Assembly (NCBI RefSeq): GCF_000194605.1
Contig: NC_015321.1
Location: 2,976,001 to 3,040,000 of the forward strand
Source: Fluviicola taffensis DSM 16823
GTDB taxonomy: Bacteria > Bacteroidota > Bacteroidia > Flavobacteriales_D > Crocinitomicaceae
Direction: 5' to 3'
DNA: 64,000 bases
Position 1 is the first letter of the stretch, and each line of letters starts with the position of its first letter. Below are positions 7,521-24,391 of this stretch, piece by piece. Below the pieces are notes generated by a model. The model was not told where the DNA came from and did not search any database. It saw only the letters and a program-made list of their open reading frames with translations. The position numbers and the translations under genes were made by a program.

Positions 7521-7650
7521 ATTCTCTTTGCACGAAGGGGTTTGAGATTGCAAGATAAAAGGTGATCTTTAGCTTCAAAGCGGTGTTGTGATGAAAGGTG
7601 AGAAGGGATTTGTTAGCGGATGGAGGAAGTGGCTAGTTGTTTCTATAATG

Positions 7651-7710
7651 TACGAGCGTGACGCTCGCACCAGCTTTGGGGACAAGCTACTCGCGTCAGC
7701 TTGATGTAAG
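7651..7710. repeat. GC-rich REP-like palindromes
   Basis: In the gap between the MDR gene and the toxin gene, the palindrome cgagcgtgacgctcg (7653-7667) is followed by agctttggggacaagct (7672-7688) and a further GC-rich stretch. The GC content is well above its AT-rich surroundings. It is probably a REP-type intergenic element, and could also act as a terminator at the end of the parDE transcript. Confidence 0.45.
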
Positions 7711-7731
7711 AGACACAAATCTGTGGTTTTT

Positions 7732-8025
7732 CTATATTTTACTTTTCAAGTCCATCTGTACATGTAAAACTCTTTCAATTTCTATCTCATTTTTAGAAAT
7801 TTCTCGATAGAAAATAAGATGTTCACCACATTTATAACCGAGAACATTTAGTGAAAGAATTTCATAGGGTTTTCCAAGTTTTGGATTACTAGCCAAATCC
7901 ATGCATGAGGCAATTAGTAAGTTATAATATTTCTCAGCTTGATTTTCTGACCATTCTTCAACGGTATAATCCCAAATTTCTATTAGATCGTTGAGCGCTC
8001 TTCTAGTAAATTTATAATTAGCCAT
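7732..8025 (-). CDS. RelE/ParE-family toxin
   Basis: The 97-residue product has the ParE-like order: FTRRALNDLIEIWDYTVEEW at the N-terminus, a GKPYEI segment, then a beta-hairpin with YKCGEHLIFYREI and a C-terminal VLHVQMDL. ParE toxins poison DNA gyrase, whereas RelE cleaves mRNA on ribosomes; the helical DLIEIWDYT start and lack of the RelE catalytic set favour ParE. The ATG follows the antitoxin stop directly (TAG then ATG), so the two are translationally coupled. Confidence 0.9.
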   Translation of the reverse strand: MANYKFTRRALNDLIEIWDYTVEEWSENQAEKYYNLLIASCMDLASNPKLGKPYEILSLNVLGYKCGEHLIFYREISKNEIEIERVLHVQMDLKSKI

Positions 8026-8268
8026 CTATTTTTTTCTCGCTTTTAGACTTTCTAAAAACTGATTAGACTCAAAATCTTCAGCAATTCCGCTATCAATCCC
8101 TTCTTGAATTGCTTTTCGTAACGAAATAATTTTGTTTTCTTCCTCTTCAAGAAGGCGAAGACCAGCACGTACAACTTCACTTGCATTATTGAACCGACCT
8201 TTATTGACAGTGCTTTCAATAAAACTCTCAAAATGATTTCCTAGAGATATAGATGTATTACGTCCCAT
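8026..8268 (-). CDS. ParD-like ribbon-helix-helix antitoxin
   Basis: The 80-residue product starts MGRNTSISLGNHFESFIES, the beta-strand and first helix of a ribbon-helix-helix DNA-binding dimer, followed by GRFNNASEVVRAGLRLLEEE, the CopG/ParD signature. The acidic, flexible C-terminus would wrap the ParE toxin. It is the first gene of the pair, as usual for parDE, and a perfect palindrome lies just upstream, which fits autoregulation. Confidence 0.92.
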   Translation of the reverse strand: MGRNTSISLGNHFESFIESTVNKGRFNNASEVVRAGLRLLEEEENKIISLRKAIQEGIDSGIAEDFESNQFLESLKARKK

Positions 8269-8284
8269 GTTTTACTTTTTAGCT

Positions 8285-8307
8285 AAGTTACCAAAAAGTG
8301 GTAACTT
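8285..8307. promoter_or_regulatory. Probable ParD operator palindrome
   Basis: The arms aagttacca (8285-8293) and tggtaactt (8299-8307) form a perfect 9-bp inverted repeat with a 5-bp centre, 17-39 bp upstream of the antitoxin ATG. RHH antitoxins bind such short palindromes in their own promoters. The role is inferred from position and symmetry. Confidence 0.6.
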
Positions 8308-8477
8308 TTCAAATTTCACAACGGTTTTTTGAAAATATCAGATAATGGATAATAACGATATCCATGTATGCAAATAGTGTTTCAGTTATTTGCCCGCAAA
8401 GTAGAAAATATTTTAATATCTGATATACTTCTCCGTAATTCTTTGGGAACTTCGACTGACAAACGCACGTGAATGGC

Positions 8478-8826
8478 TTACAATTGAGTAGATAGGGGTT
8501 TACAAAGCAATAAGATGTCTCTTACAATCGAGTTGATGAGGTATTACAAAGAAGAAAGTGAGTCATACAATTGAGTAGATAGGGGATTACAAAGTGGGAA
8601 GACACCCCTTGCAAAGCCATCAATGAGGTATTACAAAGCAGGAAAGTACCCCTTACAATGGACTCGATGGGGTATTACAATGGAGTAAGTTAGTCATACA
8701 ATAGAGTCGATTAGGTATTACAAAGGAGAAAGTGACCCCTTACAATTGAGTTGATGAGGTATTACAAAAGAGAAAATAACCCTTACAAAGGAGTAAGTGA
8801 CCCTTTACAATGAAGTTGATGAGTAA
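8478..8826. repeat. Sixteen-unit 22-bp TTACAA tandem array
   Basis: Units begin at 8478, 8500, 8522, 8544, 8565, 8587, 8609, 8631, 8653, 8675, 8696, 8718, 8740, 8762, 8783 and 8805, spaced 22 bp (21 bp three times). Thirteen begin TTACAA, two ATACAA and one TTGCAA. Two unit types alternate: A (TTACAATTGAGTTGATGAGG) and B (TTACAAAGGAGAAAGTGACC), giving a 44-bp higher-order period; the last three are B-B-A. The array is interrupted by stops in the frames I checked and lies in the gene-free stretch 8269-9093. The phased spacing of two helical turns resembles iterons or an array of protein sites, but no initiator gene is adjacent. Confidence 0.9.
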
Positions 8827-8908
8827 CTTTTTAAGAAGGAAGTAGACAAAGATAAGTAGAGGTAGATAGTTTAGTTAAGGAGGTTTATTATGAGTTGAAT
8901 AATCCTTC

Positions 8909-9013
8909 CTCTGTGTTCTTCTGTGCTCGTCCGTGGGAGAAATTCATTTACATCCTGTGTCGGTCTCGATAATAAATACTCATCCTTCGTATTTCACTCG
9001 ACCTGACACGTGA
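8909..9013. repeat. Relics of two dispersed intergenic repeats
   Basis: Bases 8909-8938 (ctctgtgttcttctgtgctc) belong to a degenerate family also seen near 2976, 5356 and 21661 (cactgaagagcacaaaggaa). Bases 8953-9013 resemble, in opposite orientation, the nested-palindrome repeat at 22170-22268, sharing tgtcrggtcgagt and tatcgaga blocks. Nothing coding is seen in 8827-9093. Confidence 0.5.
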
Positions 9014-9093
9014 GGGGTTTAACTAAACCGATTTACTCAATATTCCTTCATTTATTATTGGTTTCCAGCATTTTTCCGTCGTAATTTTACACC

Positions 9094-10836
9094 ATGAAAT
9101 ACGCATTACTTGCTCTTTTGATGGCTTTTGGAATTGCTGCTTCGGCACAAATGGTTCCGCTTCGCATTGTTTCCTACAATTTATTGAACTTCCCCAACGG
9201 AAGAAACGATTGTGGTGGTGGAAATACCAATCTTCCCAATCGGGCGGATACTCTGCGCAAGATTATGCAATACCTGAAACCAGATATTTTGGCTGGTTGT
9301 GAGATTCAAACGGCTGCAGGGTGCGATAGTGTTTTGAATCGCTCGCTCAATGTTTTTGGAACGACTTATTACCAACGTGCGGCTTTTATCTCGAACTCTA
9401 GTGGGGGAGACTTGCAGAATATGTTGTTCTACAATTCGAATAAACTCACTTTAAAAGAACAACGTATCATCCAAACAGGTGTGCGCGATATCAATCATTA
9501 CATTTTGTATGTCAACGACAATACTTTGCCACAGCACCACGATACGTGTTTTATCGAAGTGTTTATGTGTCATTTGAAAGCGGGAAGTGCAAGTGCTGAG
9601 CAGGCAACGCGTGCTGAGCAAACAGCTTTGTTGCGTACCGTTTTGGATGCGCGACCACAAGGACGACATTTGTTTGTTTGTGGTGATTTGAATACTTACA
9701 GAAGCAGTGAAGTATGCTACCAAAATTTAATCACGGGAGGCGCTTCTTCTTTGAAAGATCCAATCAATATCTCTGGAAATTGGACGAATAATAGCTCATT
9801 TGCTGCTATTCACACGCAATCTCCACGAGTAAGTGGTTCTACAGATTGTGGTGTTACTGGCGGATTAGACGATCGTTTTGATCACATTCTAGTATCACAA
9901 AATGTGATGAATGGGGCTAACTTATTGCAATACACGACTTCTTCGTATAAAGCAATTGGAAACGATGGAAACCATTACAATCAAAGTCTTTTGACGGGAA
10001 CGAATTCCCAATATCCGGATTCTGTTGTGCGAGCATTGTATTACTCTTCGGATCATTTGCCTGTAAAATTAGATGCTACAGTAACGATTCCAACCACAAA
10101 TGGATTGAATTTAACGCTGACAATGACAGGTGGAGCGTGTCAAACAGGTGGAACAAGTGTAACAGTTCATCCAAATTTGGGTCAGACTCCATACACGTAT
10201 CAATGGACAGCAAATGCAGGTCCACAAACTTCTGCGACGGCTACTAATTTATCTGCAGGAAGTTATTGTGTAACAGTAACCGACAACAACGGACTTTCTG
10301 ATGTCGTTTGCTTCGAAGTAACGGCTAATAACCCTTTAACAGCAAGTGTTTTTCCAGGATTGGATGATGGAACGTGTAACGGTCAAACCTTCGCGGTTGC
10401 AACGGGAGGCGAGGCACCATATTTGTATCAATGGAATGATCCACAGAATCAAACAACTGCTACAGCGAGTAATTTGTGTGCAGGAACATATACCTGTGTA
10501 ATTACGGATCAAAATGGGTGTTCAGTAACGGTTCAAGCAATTATTCAGTCGGAAACAACTTCTTTGAACGAATTATTTGCTGAATCAACAGTATCGTTTT
10601 TCCCAAATCCAGCTTCAGAAAACCTCACGATTCAACTAGAAAGCGCCAAGTCTTTAGAAATGATCGAATTACGCATTTTGAGTGTTTCAGGAGAAGTGGT
10701 GAAGGCACTACAAGTCGATTTTTCTGGAACGAATCAGGTAATGATTTCCTTGAATGAATTGCAGAATGGGGTTTATTTAGTCGAATTGGAGAAAGATGGA
10801 GTTTTTATTCGGAAAATGATTGTTAAAAGGACTTAA
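9094..10836 (+). CDS. Secreted endonuclease/exonuclease/phosphatase, T9SS client
   Basis: The 580-residue product has a signal peptide (to about residue 18, ending ASAQ). An endonuclease/exonuclease/phosphatase-like domain follows (about 20-335), with RIVSYNLLNFPN, a CGDLNTY metal/catalytic motif and the terminal SSDHLPVKL His. Two SprB-type repeats (about 340-485, with YTYQWTANAG and YLYQWNDPQN) lead to a type-A T9SS sorting domain starting FFPNPASENLTI. It is probably exported and anchored or released at the surface to act on nucleic acids or phosphodiesters. The gene is monocistronic, just downstream of the TTACAA array. Confidence 0.9.
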   Translation: MKYALLALLMAFGIAASAQMVPLRIVSYNLLNFPNGRNDCGGGNTNLPNRADTLRKIMQYLKPDILAGCEIQTAAGCDSVLNRSLNVFGTTYYQRAAFISNSSGGDLQNMLFYNSNKLTLKEQRIIQTGVRDINHYILYVNDNTLPQHHDTCFIEVFMCHLKAGSASAEQATRAEQTALLRTVLDARPQGRHLFVCGDLNTYRSSEVCYQNLITGGASSLKDPINISGNWTNNSSFAAIHTQSPRVSGSTDCGVTGGLDDRFDHILVSQNVMNGANLLQYTTSSYKAIGNDGNHYNQSLLTGTNSQYPDSVVRALYYSSDHLPVKLDATVTIPTTNGLNLTLTMTGGACQTGGTSVTVHPNLGQTPYTYQWTANAGPQTSATATNLSAGSYCVTVTDNNGLSDVVCFEVTANNPLTASVFPGLDDGTCNGQTFAVATGGEAPYLYQWNDPQNQTTATASNLCAGTYTCVITDQNGCSVTVQAIIQSETTSLNELFAESTVSFFPNPASENLTIQLESAKSLEMIELRILSVSGEVVKALQVDFSGTNQVMISLNELQNGVYLVELEKDGVFIRKMIVKRT

Positions 10837-19828: not shown

Positions 19829-21604
19829 TTATTCGAATTCCCAAGCACTCCGATAAACTCCATTCGTCTCAATTTCATGAATCAATTGGGAATAAAACGA
19901 ATCATTTCCAAGCGTGGCACTGTCGCCAATGAGGTAGCATTTTCTTTTTGCTCTAGAAATGGCGACATTTGTTCGTCTGTAATCACGCAAAAAACCAATA
20001 ATTCCATCCGGATTGGATCGGGTAAAACTAATAACAATATTTTCTTCTTCTTGCCCCTGAATAGCGTCAATGGTGGAAACATGCCATTCTGTTCCCATCG
20101 TTTTTTGCAAGAGTGCTATTTGAGCAGAATACGGAGCAATAATCGTCGTTTGTGTAGGATTTAATGATTCTGATTCAATCAGTTTTCGAACCACTTTCAC
20201 TTCATCCCAGTTTTCAAAGCTTCCAGTTGTTTCGTTTTCTGTTTCACCATTCCCAAATCCAGCCATGTCGATGAATTGAATCTCACCTGATGGAATTCCA
20301 ATTGCTGTTTGAAGTTCGTTGTTGTAAAAGTATGGATTGATCGTTGAAACAATTTCAGGAGCCATTCGGTATTGCTCGTTTAAAAGAACCGGTTTTTGCA
20401 AGTGGCTGACCGTTTCCAATAAACTTTTATTGAGACCTAATTCGATGGCTTTATTACTGAAAACAACTGGTGGTAATTGCTGTGGATCCCCACACAAGAC
20501 GAGCTTTTTCCCGAAAGTAGCAACCAACCAAGTCAATGGGGCTAAGGATTGTCCAGCTTCGTCCAAAATAACGACATCGAATGAAGCGTCTTTGGAAAGT
20601 GCATTGAACAACGCAACTGGAGTTCCTGCAATCACAGAACTCGATTCAATCAATTGTTGCTCCGTATCTTGAGCTAGTTTTCGCAATTCCTTTTGCAATT
20701 CACGTAAATCGCGTTTTGCTTGTCGTTTTTCATCTGCTGCCTCCTTGGTGTAATTTCGGATAGTGCGATTTGCGACTTGTTCTGTCTTTTGGATTTGTTT
20801 CTTAATCGTCTGACTATATTGCGCCGTTTTTCCACCTTCTAAATAAGCATCAATGGTATAAGGAATAACTTCTGCGGAAACTTTTTCATTGTTCCCAACG
20901 CGCAACAAACTAATCTTTGCAGCAATCAATTTCTTACACAAGTTATCTACTGCAGTATTACTTGGTGCTGTGACCAACACTTTTTTTCCGCGATTCACCA
21001 ATTCTGCAATAGCAATGGATAAAGTATGCGTTTTTCCAGTTCCTGGAGGACCTTGAATAACAGTCGTTAAATCCGAACTTAAAATGGCTCCAACAGCTTC
21101 TTGCTGAGAATTGTTGAGTAAATCAGCCGAGAAAGAGGAGGTTTCCTTTTTTACCGAGAAATCATGCTCGAAATCTTGTAGCTGTTTTTGCTCTTTTAAA
21201 AACCGTACTCCAAACTCCATGCATTCCAGCGTCCGATCATCGGGGGTGAAATCTATTCGCGCACTATTTTCAAACGGATTTCCTTCAATTTCTTCTTTGG
21301 AGAAAATAGTTAGCGAATAAGCGTTTAATTCGACGATTCGAGCTTTGTATCGTTTATTATCAACGTAAAACAAAACCGATGAACCTCTTCGGAAAAATGA
21401 GTTATTGATCACAAAGGAAGTCTCCAATTGGTAGAATTCTCCATTGATTCCCGTGCGAATATCTCGAACTTCACAAGGAAATAAACTTAATCCTTGCTTC
21501 CGCAATATGTTCGGAGCAATTTTCAAATTTTCGTTCGCCAGTTTCTGAGAATACAAAATCTCTTCCTTGACGGCTTGTTCCAACTGCGGATGTATCGCTT
21601 GCAT
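19829..21604 (-). CDS. SF1B DNA helicase (IGHMBP2/DNA2-like)
   Basis: The 591-residue product has all SF1 motifs in order: Walker A QGPPGTGKTHTL, DEAG box VVILDEAGQSL, GDPQQLPP, the LNEQYRMAPE motif, and VSTIDAIQGQEEENIVISFTRS with RRTNVAISRAKR. It is an Upf1/IGHMBP2-type 5'-3' helicase acting on DNA or RNA. The N-terminal part carries the beta-barrel accessory domain typical for the group. The start at 21604 is supported by the repetition of the same first 28 codons in two tandem fragments upstream. Confidence 0.92.
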   Translation of the reverse strand: MQAIHPQLEQAVKEEILYSQKLANENLKIAPNILRKQGLSLFPCEVRDIRTGINGEFYQLETSFVINNSFFRRGSSVLFYVDNKRYKARIVELNAYSLTIFSKEEIEGNPFENSARIDFTPDDRTLECMEFGVRFLKEQKQLQDFEHDFSVKKETSSFSADLLNNSQQEAVGAILSSDLTTVIQGPPGTGKTHTLSIAIAELVNRGKKVLVTAPSNTAVDNLCKKLIAAKISLLRVGNNEKVSAEVIPYTIDAYLEGGKTAQYSQTIKKQIQKTEQVANRTIRNYTKEAADEKRQAKRDLRELQKELRKLAQDTEQQLIESSSVIAGTPVALFNALSKDASFDVVILDEAGQSLAPLTWLVATFGKKLVLCGDPQQLPPVVFSNKAIELGLNKSLLETVSHLQKPVLLNEQYRMAPEIVSTINPYFYNNELQTAIGIPSGEIQFIDMAGFGNGETENETTGSFENWDEVKVVRKLIESESLNPTQTTIIAPYSAQIALLQKTMGTEWHVSTIDAIQGQEEENIVISFTRSNPDGIIGFLRDYRRTNVAISRAKRKCYLIGDSATLGNDSFYSQLIHEIETNGVYRSAWEFE

Positions 21605-21778
21605 GATTTGTTTTTAGCTGATGAAGATAAACGGAAGTTTTACTAAATGATAATTTTCTCCCACTGAAGAGCACAAAGGAACACGAAAGTTAAGTGTTTT
21701 GTAGATTATGAATATTGAATACGATGTCTTTCTTATGTGTTCATTAGTGCGCCTTAGTGGGAAATAATTTGGAGTAAC

Positions 21779-21862
21779 TTTCAAATTTTCGTTCGCCAGT
21801 TTCTGAGAATACAAAATCTCTTCCTTGACGGCTTGTTCCAACTGCGGATGTATCGCTTGCAT
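21779..21862 (-). pseudogene. Duplicated N-terminal fragment of the helicase (copy 2)
   Basis: From the ATG at 21862 this encodes the same MQAIHPQLEQAVKEEILYSQ start as the helicase, then LANENLKV instead of LANENLKI, after which the frame runs into the upstream DNA of copy 1. It is a truncated 5' duplicate. It could yield a short peptide of 28 helicase residues plus unrelated tail if expressed. Confidence 0.85.
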
Positions 21863-22026
21863 GATTTGTTTTTAGCTGATGAAGATAAACGGAAGTTTTA
21901 CTAAATGATAATTTTCTCCCACTGAAGAGCACAAAGGAACACGAAAGTTAAGTGTTTTGTAGATTATGAATATTGAATACGATGTCTTTCTTATGTGTTC
22001 ATTAGTGGGAAATAATTTGGAGTAAC

Positions 22027-22110
22027 TTTCAAATTTTCGTTCGCCAGTTTCTGAGAATACAAAATCTCTTCCTTGATGGCTTGTTCCAACTGCGGATGTA
22101 TCGACTGCAT
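22027..22110 (-). pseudogene. Duplicated N-terminal fragment of the helicase (copy 3)
   Basis: From the ATG at 22110 this encodes MQSIHPQLEQAIKEEILYSQ, with A3S and V12I relative to the helicase, then LANENLKV and a short tail ending at a TAA after about 40 codons. It is the outermost and most diverged copy, so it may carry the oldest promoter region. Confidence 0.8.
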
Positions 22111-22169
22111 GATTCTTTTTTAGGCCACTAAGATAACTTGCGTACTTATCTAAGTTGTTTCATCTCGAT

Positions 22170-24232: not shown

Positions 24233-24329
24233 ATTAAGAGATTATTCTACTAAATTAATAAGTTGTTCCAATGAATACCAGTAAATACGGATGAAAGTGA
24301 TTTTTTAGGATGAAAGGTTGTAAATAATT

Positions 24330-24391
24330 ACGAATTACGAATTACGAATTACGAATTACGAATTACGAATTACGAATTACGAATTACGAAT
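24330..24391. repeat. 7-bp microsatellite (acgaatt)n
   Basis: Eight exact tandem copies of acgaatt start at 24330 and are followed by a partial ninth. They lie between the hydrolase stop and the ABC ATPase start. Copy number is probably variable by slippage. A 7-bp unit would change promoter spacing by slippage, but whether it lies within a promoter is unclear. Confidence 0.9.

Follow-up and report, generated by a model that had tools for sequence, protein, structure and literature searches.

What is a long, evenly spaced repeat array doing in gene-free DNA between a toxin-antitoxin pair and a nuclease gene of Fluviicola taffensis? The array lies in the window, by which we mean the whole stretch of 64,000 nucleotides analysed (G000:C1:2976001-3040000, where G000 is the F. 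taffensis genome, a single contig of 4,633,577 bp). An initial annotation, made from the letters alone, described 16 phased units and flagged them as a possible undescribed element. The array and its surroundings comprise the following features, in window coordinates.

7732-8025, minus strand: parE toxin gene, flanking; nothing links it to the array
8026-8268, minus strand: parD antitoxin gene, flanking; nothing links it to the array
8269-9093, no strand: gene-free stretch of 825 bp that holds the array
8478-8826, plus strand: orphan phased array, 16 units of 21-22 bp with core TTACAA, A and B units alternating, 44-bp super-period
8910-8938, no strand: short dispersed sequence (CTGTGTTCTTCTGTGCTC-like) between the array and the nuclease gene, outside the array; more than 10 partial copies in the genome
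9094-10836, plus strand: gene for a secreted, T9SS-sorted Exo_endo_phos nuclease, flanking

The window array and its neighbours

Direct reading bears out the structure first described. The unit starts run from 8478 to 8805 and read TTACAA (13), ATACAA (2) or TTGCAA (1), with a spacing of 22 bp at twelve steps and 21 bp at three. Inner types A and B alternate up to the last units, which run B-B-A. Repetition extends over the entire 21-22-bp unit, leaving no unique spacers, and the proposed phasing at about two helical turns is supported. The stretch around the array is indeed free of genes, and Pfam places parDE (PF05016, PF03693) and the secreted nuclease on its flanks as proposed, with no initiator gene among the four flanking genes (parD, parE, the nuclease and an alcohol dehydrogenase). 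Tandem Repeats Finder reports the array as overlapping rows with periods of 21, 22, 43, 44, 87 and 131. Against dinucleotide shuffles, self-matching within 8001-9000 peaks at lag 65 (z 10.5), with further signals at lags 44 (z 9.9), 43 (z 8.1) and 22 (z 5.6). An Rfam scan of 7600-9400 returned no match in the array and one sub-threshold match within the nuclease gene.

The window contains other repeats as well. Positions 8958-9008 have two related copies elsewhere in the chromosome, at G000:C1:409353 and 411208. Downstream of parE, at 7655-7700, is a palindrome, GAGCGTGACGCTCGC, which we take to be REP-like from its likeness to REP elements. A perfect intergenic heptamer array (AATTACG x 9.4) occupies 24326-24391, and a 258-bp direct repeat (2.4 copies, 95% matches) at 21513-22123 overlaps the start of a helicase-like open reading frame.

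Neither neighbour appears to be the array's partner. Orthologues of the nuclease occur in 9 of 14 genus genomes, F. taffensis included, and a phased array lies upstream of only two of them (F. taffensis and G060); by eye, the sequence near the nuclease ATG looks alike in relatives that lack the array. We regard the adjacency to parDE as coincidence, since no such pair was seen by eye beside the other arrays we read, except in G052, where an orphan array adjoins an apparent antitoxin-toxin pair, as the window array does. The G052 array, and an array fragment on contig C15 of G060, also lie beside what we presume, from its RAYT/REP likeness, to be the 3' end of a REP-transposase gene. The idea that this locus is the element's home was not sustained: the window array is an orphan copy, with no tie found to parDE or to the nuclease. 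The initial annotation had proposed that a protein-binding role would be doubtful if relatives lacked the phasing, and here the result divides. Seven of the nine nuclease loci are without an array, yet phasing is strongly conserved across the phylum upstream of a different gene, which we call X.

Phased arrays upstream of gene X

A second array is present in the F. taffensis chromosome, beginning at G000:C1:346091. It comprises 12 units (11 TTACAA, 1 TCGCAA), mostly at 22-bp steps and preceded by CCCC or a similar sequence, and it ends about 200 bp before X, a 226-residue open frame at G000:C1:346537. The units of the two arrays are closely alike (5-mer similarity z 12.0 against column-permuted arrays). 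This X gene is the genome's one match to the family, and none lies near the window array. The window array nonetheless fits the X-linked class in period and unit type, and on that basis we call it an orphan. A single genome can thus hold an X-linked array together with a far-off orphan of like unit.

X is patchily distributed. Homologues occur in 7 of the 14 genus genomes (17 matches in total). A profile search of the phylum gave matches in 12 of 296 genomes, and a wider profile in 21 of 395, several of these with weak partial matches only. Scanning contigs of named genomes yielded 20 X loci from Stygiobacter, Ignavibacteria, a Kryptoniota MAG, Bacteroidetes MAGs and one Verrucomicrobia MAG. 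The Verrucomicrobia locus has no array; array-bearing loci include members of the window's own class, Ignavibacteria and a Kryptoniota MAG. Relatives of X were not confirmed in IMG/VR (pattern scan with A3), in plasmids (tblastn with F. taffensis X) or in phages (tblastn with Stygiobacter X).

The arrays are hard to find by their own sequence. An initial search with the unit pattern matched 12 of 240 genomes, among which only G000, G052 and G056 hold arrays of the window's unit type; by eye, the remaining matches look like coding sequence, simple repeats or single chance matches. A single-model search built on relatives' 21-bp units (R1) gave no F. taffensis match at E<=0.1 among the 150 of 1780 candidates scored, and applied to both F. 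taffensis arrays it produced only sub-threshold matches (E 0.27 to 0.58). A non-coding element that conserves its period and place but not its letters is one that homology searches miss.

We measured lag repetition in the 1 kb upstream and the 1 kb downstream of X, scanning lags 10-70 and calling an array when the best lag fell at 20-22, 41-44 or 62-66 with z>5. An array lies upstream at 44 of 55 distinct X loci and downstream at 3 of 55 (Fisher p 2e-16). The initial upstream counts by locus set, before all loci were recounted by this one rule, were 29 of 34, 11 of 16 tested (of 20; one repeating an earlier locus) and 5 of 6. The downstream matches are L104 (lag 21), L117 (lag 66) and L164 (lag 22); the lag-22 repetition downstream of L164 reaches z about 8, and most other loci have nothing similar. 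The eleven loci without an upstream array are L099, L103, L107, L110, L138, L152 (lag 27), L154, L156, L158, L159 and L170. These misses include three loci whose X starts were guessed (L156, L158, L159), one broken by Ns (L099) and two at contig starts (L110, L103), all retained in the 55. Rows L140-L142 and L149 were excluded as duplicate loci and L151 for want of upstream DNA, and the array test covered X matches other than the weak partial ones from the profile searches.

The repetition is largely confined to this position. It was found within the X gene itself at none of 34 loci at z>5, and the same lag rule was passed by none of 148 background 1-kb windows taken from the window and five other stretches, with those over known arrays excluded. 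When neighbours were compared by clustering rather than annotation, X was recovered from 41 of 42 loci, and every other gene cluster spanned at most 3 loci within flanks of 1.5-3 kb.

In Fluviicola, a shared block separates the array from X. All 14 Fluviicola X genes carry a TTGGCAC-like box between array and ATG, and 12 of 14 have a TTAAC dyad about 32 bp before that box. The joint pattern occurs 12 times in the 14 genus genomes, 11 times at X genes and once at another place in G060, against two occurrences of the backward control pattern. Sigma54 promoters carry a -24 GG and a -12 GC box, and while the TTGGCAC-like box recalls the -24 element, we set this identification aside because no TTGC was seen by eye at -12. 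The shared box and dyad suggest that, in Fluviicola, the array is probably a DNA element that precedes a dedicated promoter.

The protein itself offers few clues. X proteins have about 230 residues, and a Stygiobacter member is modelled by AlphaFold as all-helical at moderate quality (pLDDT 82, pTM 0.50). The model matched no PDB or viral fold at E<=1e-3, and the best PDB match by sequence is a designed helix bundle (E 0.004). Neither Pfam nor NCBIfam gives a match to F. taffensis X at E<=1, the X1 protein of G056 has weak Pfam and NCBIfam matches below curated cut-offs, and 16 family members (A4) returned only single-member matches at E 0.001-0.01 in Pfam, PADLOC, NCBIfam and PHROGs. No known DNA-binding domain was recognised in family or structure libraries. 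Three of four long X proteins scanned (L153, L155, L157) end in a CarboxypepD_reg domain, which would be unexpected for a DNA-binding protein. Charge is mixed, with the pI above 8 in 15 of 45 rows and below 6.5 in 25 of 45 (four rows being repeats), and all 9 Fluviicola rows lie above 8.

Near-constant spacing and drifting units

The 44 X-linked arrays have a median length of 276 bp and a median gap to the ATG of 153 bp, and a typical array has some 13 units spaced two helical turns apart. With the window array added, 41 of 45 arrays are best described, among periods of 20-23, by 21 bp and the other four by 22 bp, all four being from Fluviicola (three X2-type arrays and the window array). Unit steps are exactly modal in 513 of 527 cases, with 10 off by one and 4 differing more, in a measurement that favours exact steps because array ends were picked by periodicity and the unit model penalises indels. 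Adjacent units nevertheless differ at 43% of positions over the 45 arrays. In this class, spacing is kept and letters drift.

Several arrays show higher-order structure. In 20 of 45 arrays, units resemble the next but one more closely than their direct neighbours; the window array is among these (difference 0.39 against 0.53), so A/B alternation belongs to part of the class. A G060 orphan array (L189, reverse complement about 850-1270) has, by eye, a four-unit super-period of about 87 bp, some arrays, L126 for one, are nearly homogeneous, and in G056 the units at array edges are degenerate. A universal unit core was not supported: CAA- and TTACA-like words are enriched without being universal, with TTACA exceeding z 1.5 in 10 of 36 arrays.

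Unit sequence differs between most loci, close paralogues aside. Close paralogues within a genome (L116/L127, L133/L135, L129/L136) carry similar arrays, which plain descent would also produce. No gaps are needed to align the L116/L127 arrays, where the aligned upstream DNA differs by 12% and third codon positions by 19%, and the L133/L135 alignment is gapped in its distal part. The arrays of the orthologous pair L104/L105 align poorly.

The arrays do not look coding. Open frames exceed those of column-permuted controls (p<0.05) in 1 of 40 arrays on the forward strand and 0 of 40 on the reverse, and the arrays of L143, L150, L116 and L118 have stops in all six frames, although some others contain a long open frame. 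There is no RNA-fold signal over 44 arrays (mean z -0.22 sense, -0.18 antisense), the fold z falling below -2 in 2 of 44 sense and 4 of 44 antisense. Units are dyads at z>2 in only 4 of 45 arrays.

We read five orphan arrays: the window array, G060 C56, G060 C24, G056 C6 and G052 C90. None of their contigs or places is among the genus X matches. The G060 C56 orphan sits at the orthologous nuclease locus. That on G060 C24 lies between two convergent open frames, so control of a neighbour's promoter cannot be a general or only role. Orphans resemble home arrays of their genomes at z 12.0, 4.3, 6.7 and 11.7, a likeness that arises partly by construction because orphans were assigned to X lineages by unit resemblance. 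Independent of that assignment, where a Fluviicola genome holds several X lineages, X-linked arrays from different lineages are alike at z>3 in 0 of 5 pairs. With orphans included, the count is 0 of 12. Such unlike arrays within one genome speak against one general factor.

The bases before the ACAA core illustrate the pattern. In F. taffensis, TT precedes it in 11 of 11 X-linked and 13 of 15 orphan units, and in G060 in 0 of 8 X-linked and 0 of 18 orphan units, the latter from the orthologous nuclease locus. Within G056, TT is present in 8 of 9 X1 units, 9 of 11 orphan units and 0 of 8 X2 units. Comparisons across genomes are less regular. X-linked arrays of orthologues reach z>3 in 0 of 6 pairs for X2, 5 of 6 for X3 and 0 of 1 for X1. 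The F. taffensis X2 and window arrays resemble the X1 array of G056 and the orphans of G056 and G052 (z 4.4 to 7.8), and the G049 X2 array also resembles G056 X1 (z 4.4). Over all 105 array pairs, z>3 is reached by 4 of 4 home-orphan pairs in one genome, 11 of 27 of the same lineage across genomes, 0 of 12 of different lineages in one genome and 13 of 62 with neither lineage nor genome in common. Unit type is thus not strictly bound to X lineage or to genome.

Possible roles of the arrays

We read the window array as an orphan from a class of non-coding arrays, spread across the phylum, whose home is upstream of X. Tentatively, such arrays may serve as a platform for a cooperatively bound protein, the likeliest candidate being the cognate X. 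On each platform the protein would bind side by side along one face of the helix, perhaps forming a filament or a wrapped complex. Binding of this kind would place the spacing under selection, and the letters could drift if protein and site drifted together. X, the only gene seen to recur with home arrays, could act on its own promoter region and, in trans, on orphans such as the window array. Its candidacy is weakened by the lack of a recognisable DNA-binding domain or fold match and by its mixed charge, and also because unit type is not strict with X lineage and X2 orthologues have unlike arrays. The fuller proposal is somewhat doubtful: that X and array form a self-contained DNA-protein module, in which a helical protein and a phased non-coding array drift together while the two-turn spacing is held, with several independent versions per chromosome and orphans as remote docking sites.

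Should another protein occupy the platform (an activator, a silencer or a nucleoid protein), X would merely be a regulated gene and the orphans further sites. The dyad and TTGGCAC-like box common to Fluviicola X genes suggest that a factor shared by X paralogues could be active there, acidity is common among X proteins, and the F. taffensis arrays resemble the array of another X lineage in G056 as well as orphans in G056 and G052. One shared factor is hard to reconcile with the 0 of 5 X-linked pairs alike across lineages within a genome, no second gene was seen recurring with the module, and the G060 orphan between convergent frames shows that promoter control of a neighbour is not the sole role; we consider this reading unlikely. 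Rather less probable is a neutral or selfish satellite that arose by slippage and recombination and persists near X by chance. Degenerate edges, homogeneous arrays and super-periods are usual in satellite evolution, and all occur here: the edge units of G056, the near-uniform units of arrays such as L126, and super-periods of 42, 44 and 87 bp. That 7 of 9 nuclease loci lack an array, as do 11 of 55 X loci, and that orthologous X2 genes have unlike arrays, would also fit. A satellite would not readily explain why units have diverged with spacing almost unchanged, why different unit sequences share an identical period and place beside X, or why 0 of 148 background windows show such repetition.

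The arrangement also recalls type III toxin-antitoxin systems (ToxIN, TenpIN, CptIN), in which a repeat array lies directly upstream of a stand-alone gene and the repeats vary by locus. A repeat RNA transcribed from the array would then bind and neutralise X, and orphans without X would be spare antidotes; the locus-specific repeats directly upstream of a stand-alone gene, the multiple copies in some genomes and the scattered distribution (12 of 296 and 21 of 395 genomes) all suit this proposal. We nonetheless think it improbable. X arrays differ in having no fold signal on either strand and a nearly fixed 21-bp period that suits a DNA helix better than RNA, and in Fluviicola the shared block intervenes between array and gene. 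Nor was there a convincing match to a known type III toxin family, with A4 searched in Pfam, PADLOC and NCBIfam and F. taffensis X in Pfam and NCBIfam. That the array is or was protein-coding, with 21 bp as seven codons of a heptad-repeat peptide, we hold to be very improbable indeed. The period is divisible by 3 in 41 of 45 arrays, indels are scarce and some arrays have a long open frame, but frames exceed those of column-permuted arrays only once in 40 on the forward strand and never in 40 on the reverse, several arrays are cut by stops in all six frames, and 22-bp arrays cannot hold one frame.

Among known systems, iteron origins and partition sites (Rep/iterons, TubR/tubC, ParR/parC) offer the nearest parallels to the preferred reading of a bound platform, since they set regular direct repeats beside the gene of the binding protein in locus-specific pairs. 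X arrays share the tandem direct repeats, phased to the helix at a regular step beside the gene of a putative binder. They differ in being chromosomal, with several copies in some genomes, in having units 43% diverged, and in that X is predicted to be helical without a known DNA-binding domain. The four flanking window genes examined with Pfam include no initiator of Rep or DnaA type, and no second gene that could be an initiator or partition NTPase recurs in the 1.5-3 kb flanks of the X loci compared.

Other repeat classes are more distant. The table in the F. taffensis genome paper gives 'CRISPR repeats 1' (PMC3236050). CRISPR arrays have regular repeats, as X arrays do, but here unique spacers are absent, the whole 21-22-bp unit repeats and adjacent units are 43% diverged. 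We presume that the tabulated CRISPR could be such an array miscalled. Borg elements, in the available text of their report, carry many regions of tandem direct repeats that are recent, rapidly evolving and independently arising (PMC9879509); X arrays are likewise tandem direct repeats in prokaryotic DNA, but are diverged, period-locked and tied to one gene family. The intergenic TAACTGA direct repeats of Beggiatoaceae, as the accessible part of that paper presents them, form 169 sets of one heptamer motif with role unknown (PMC4679880). X arrays, also intergenic direct repeats, differ from them in their two-turn period and in units that vary between loci. The available portion of a Fluviicola paper (PMC5701471) holds nothing relevant on repeats. 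In keeping with the suggestion of an undescribed element, searches of open-access titles and abstract openings yielded no account of such arrays.

Arrays of this class point to a gene family, within Bacteroidota broadly defined, that has yet to be studied. They also provide a testable case for spacing that would be held by selection while sequence drifts freely. If X binds its array, the family would supply numerous naturally occurring protein-site pairs in which to study the diversification of DNA recognition.
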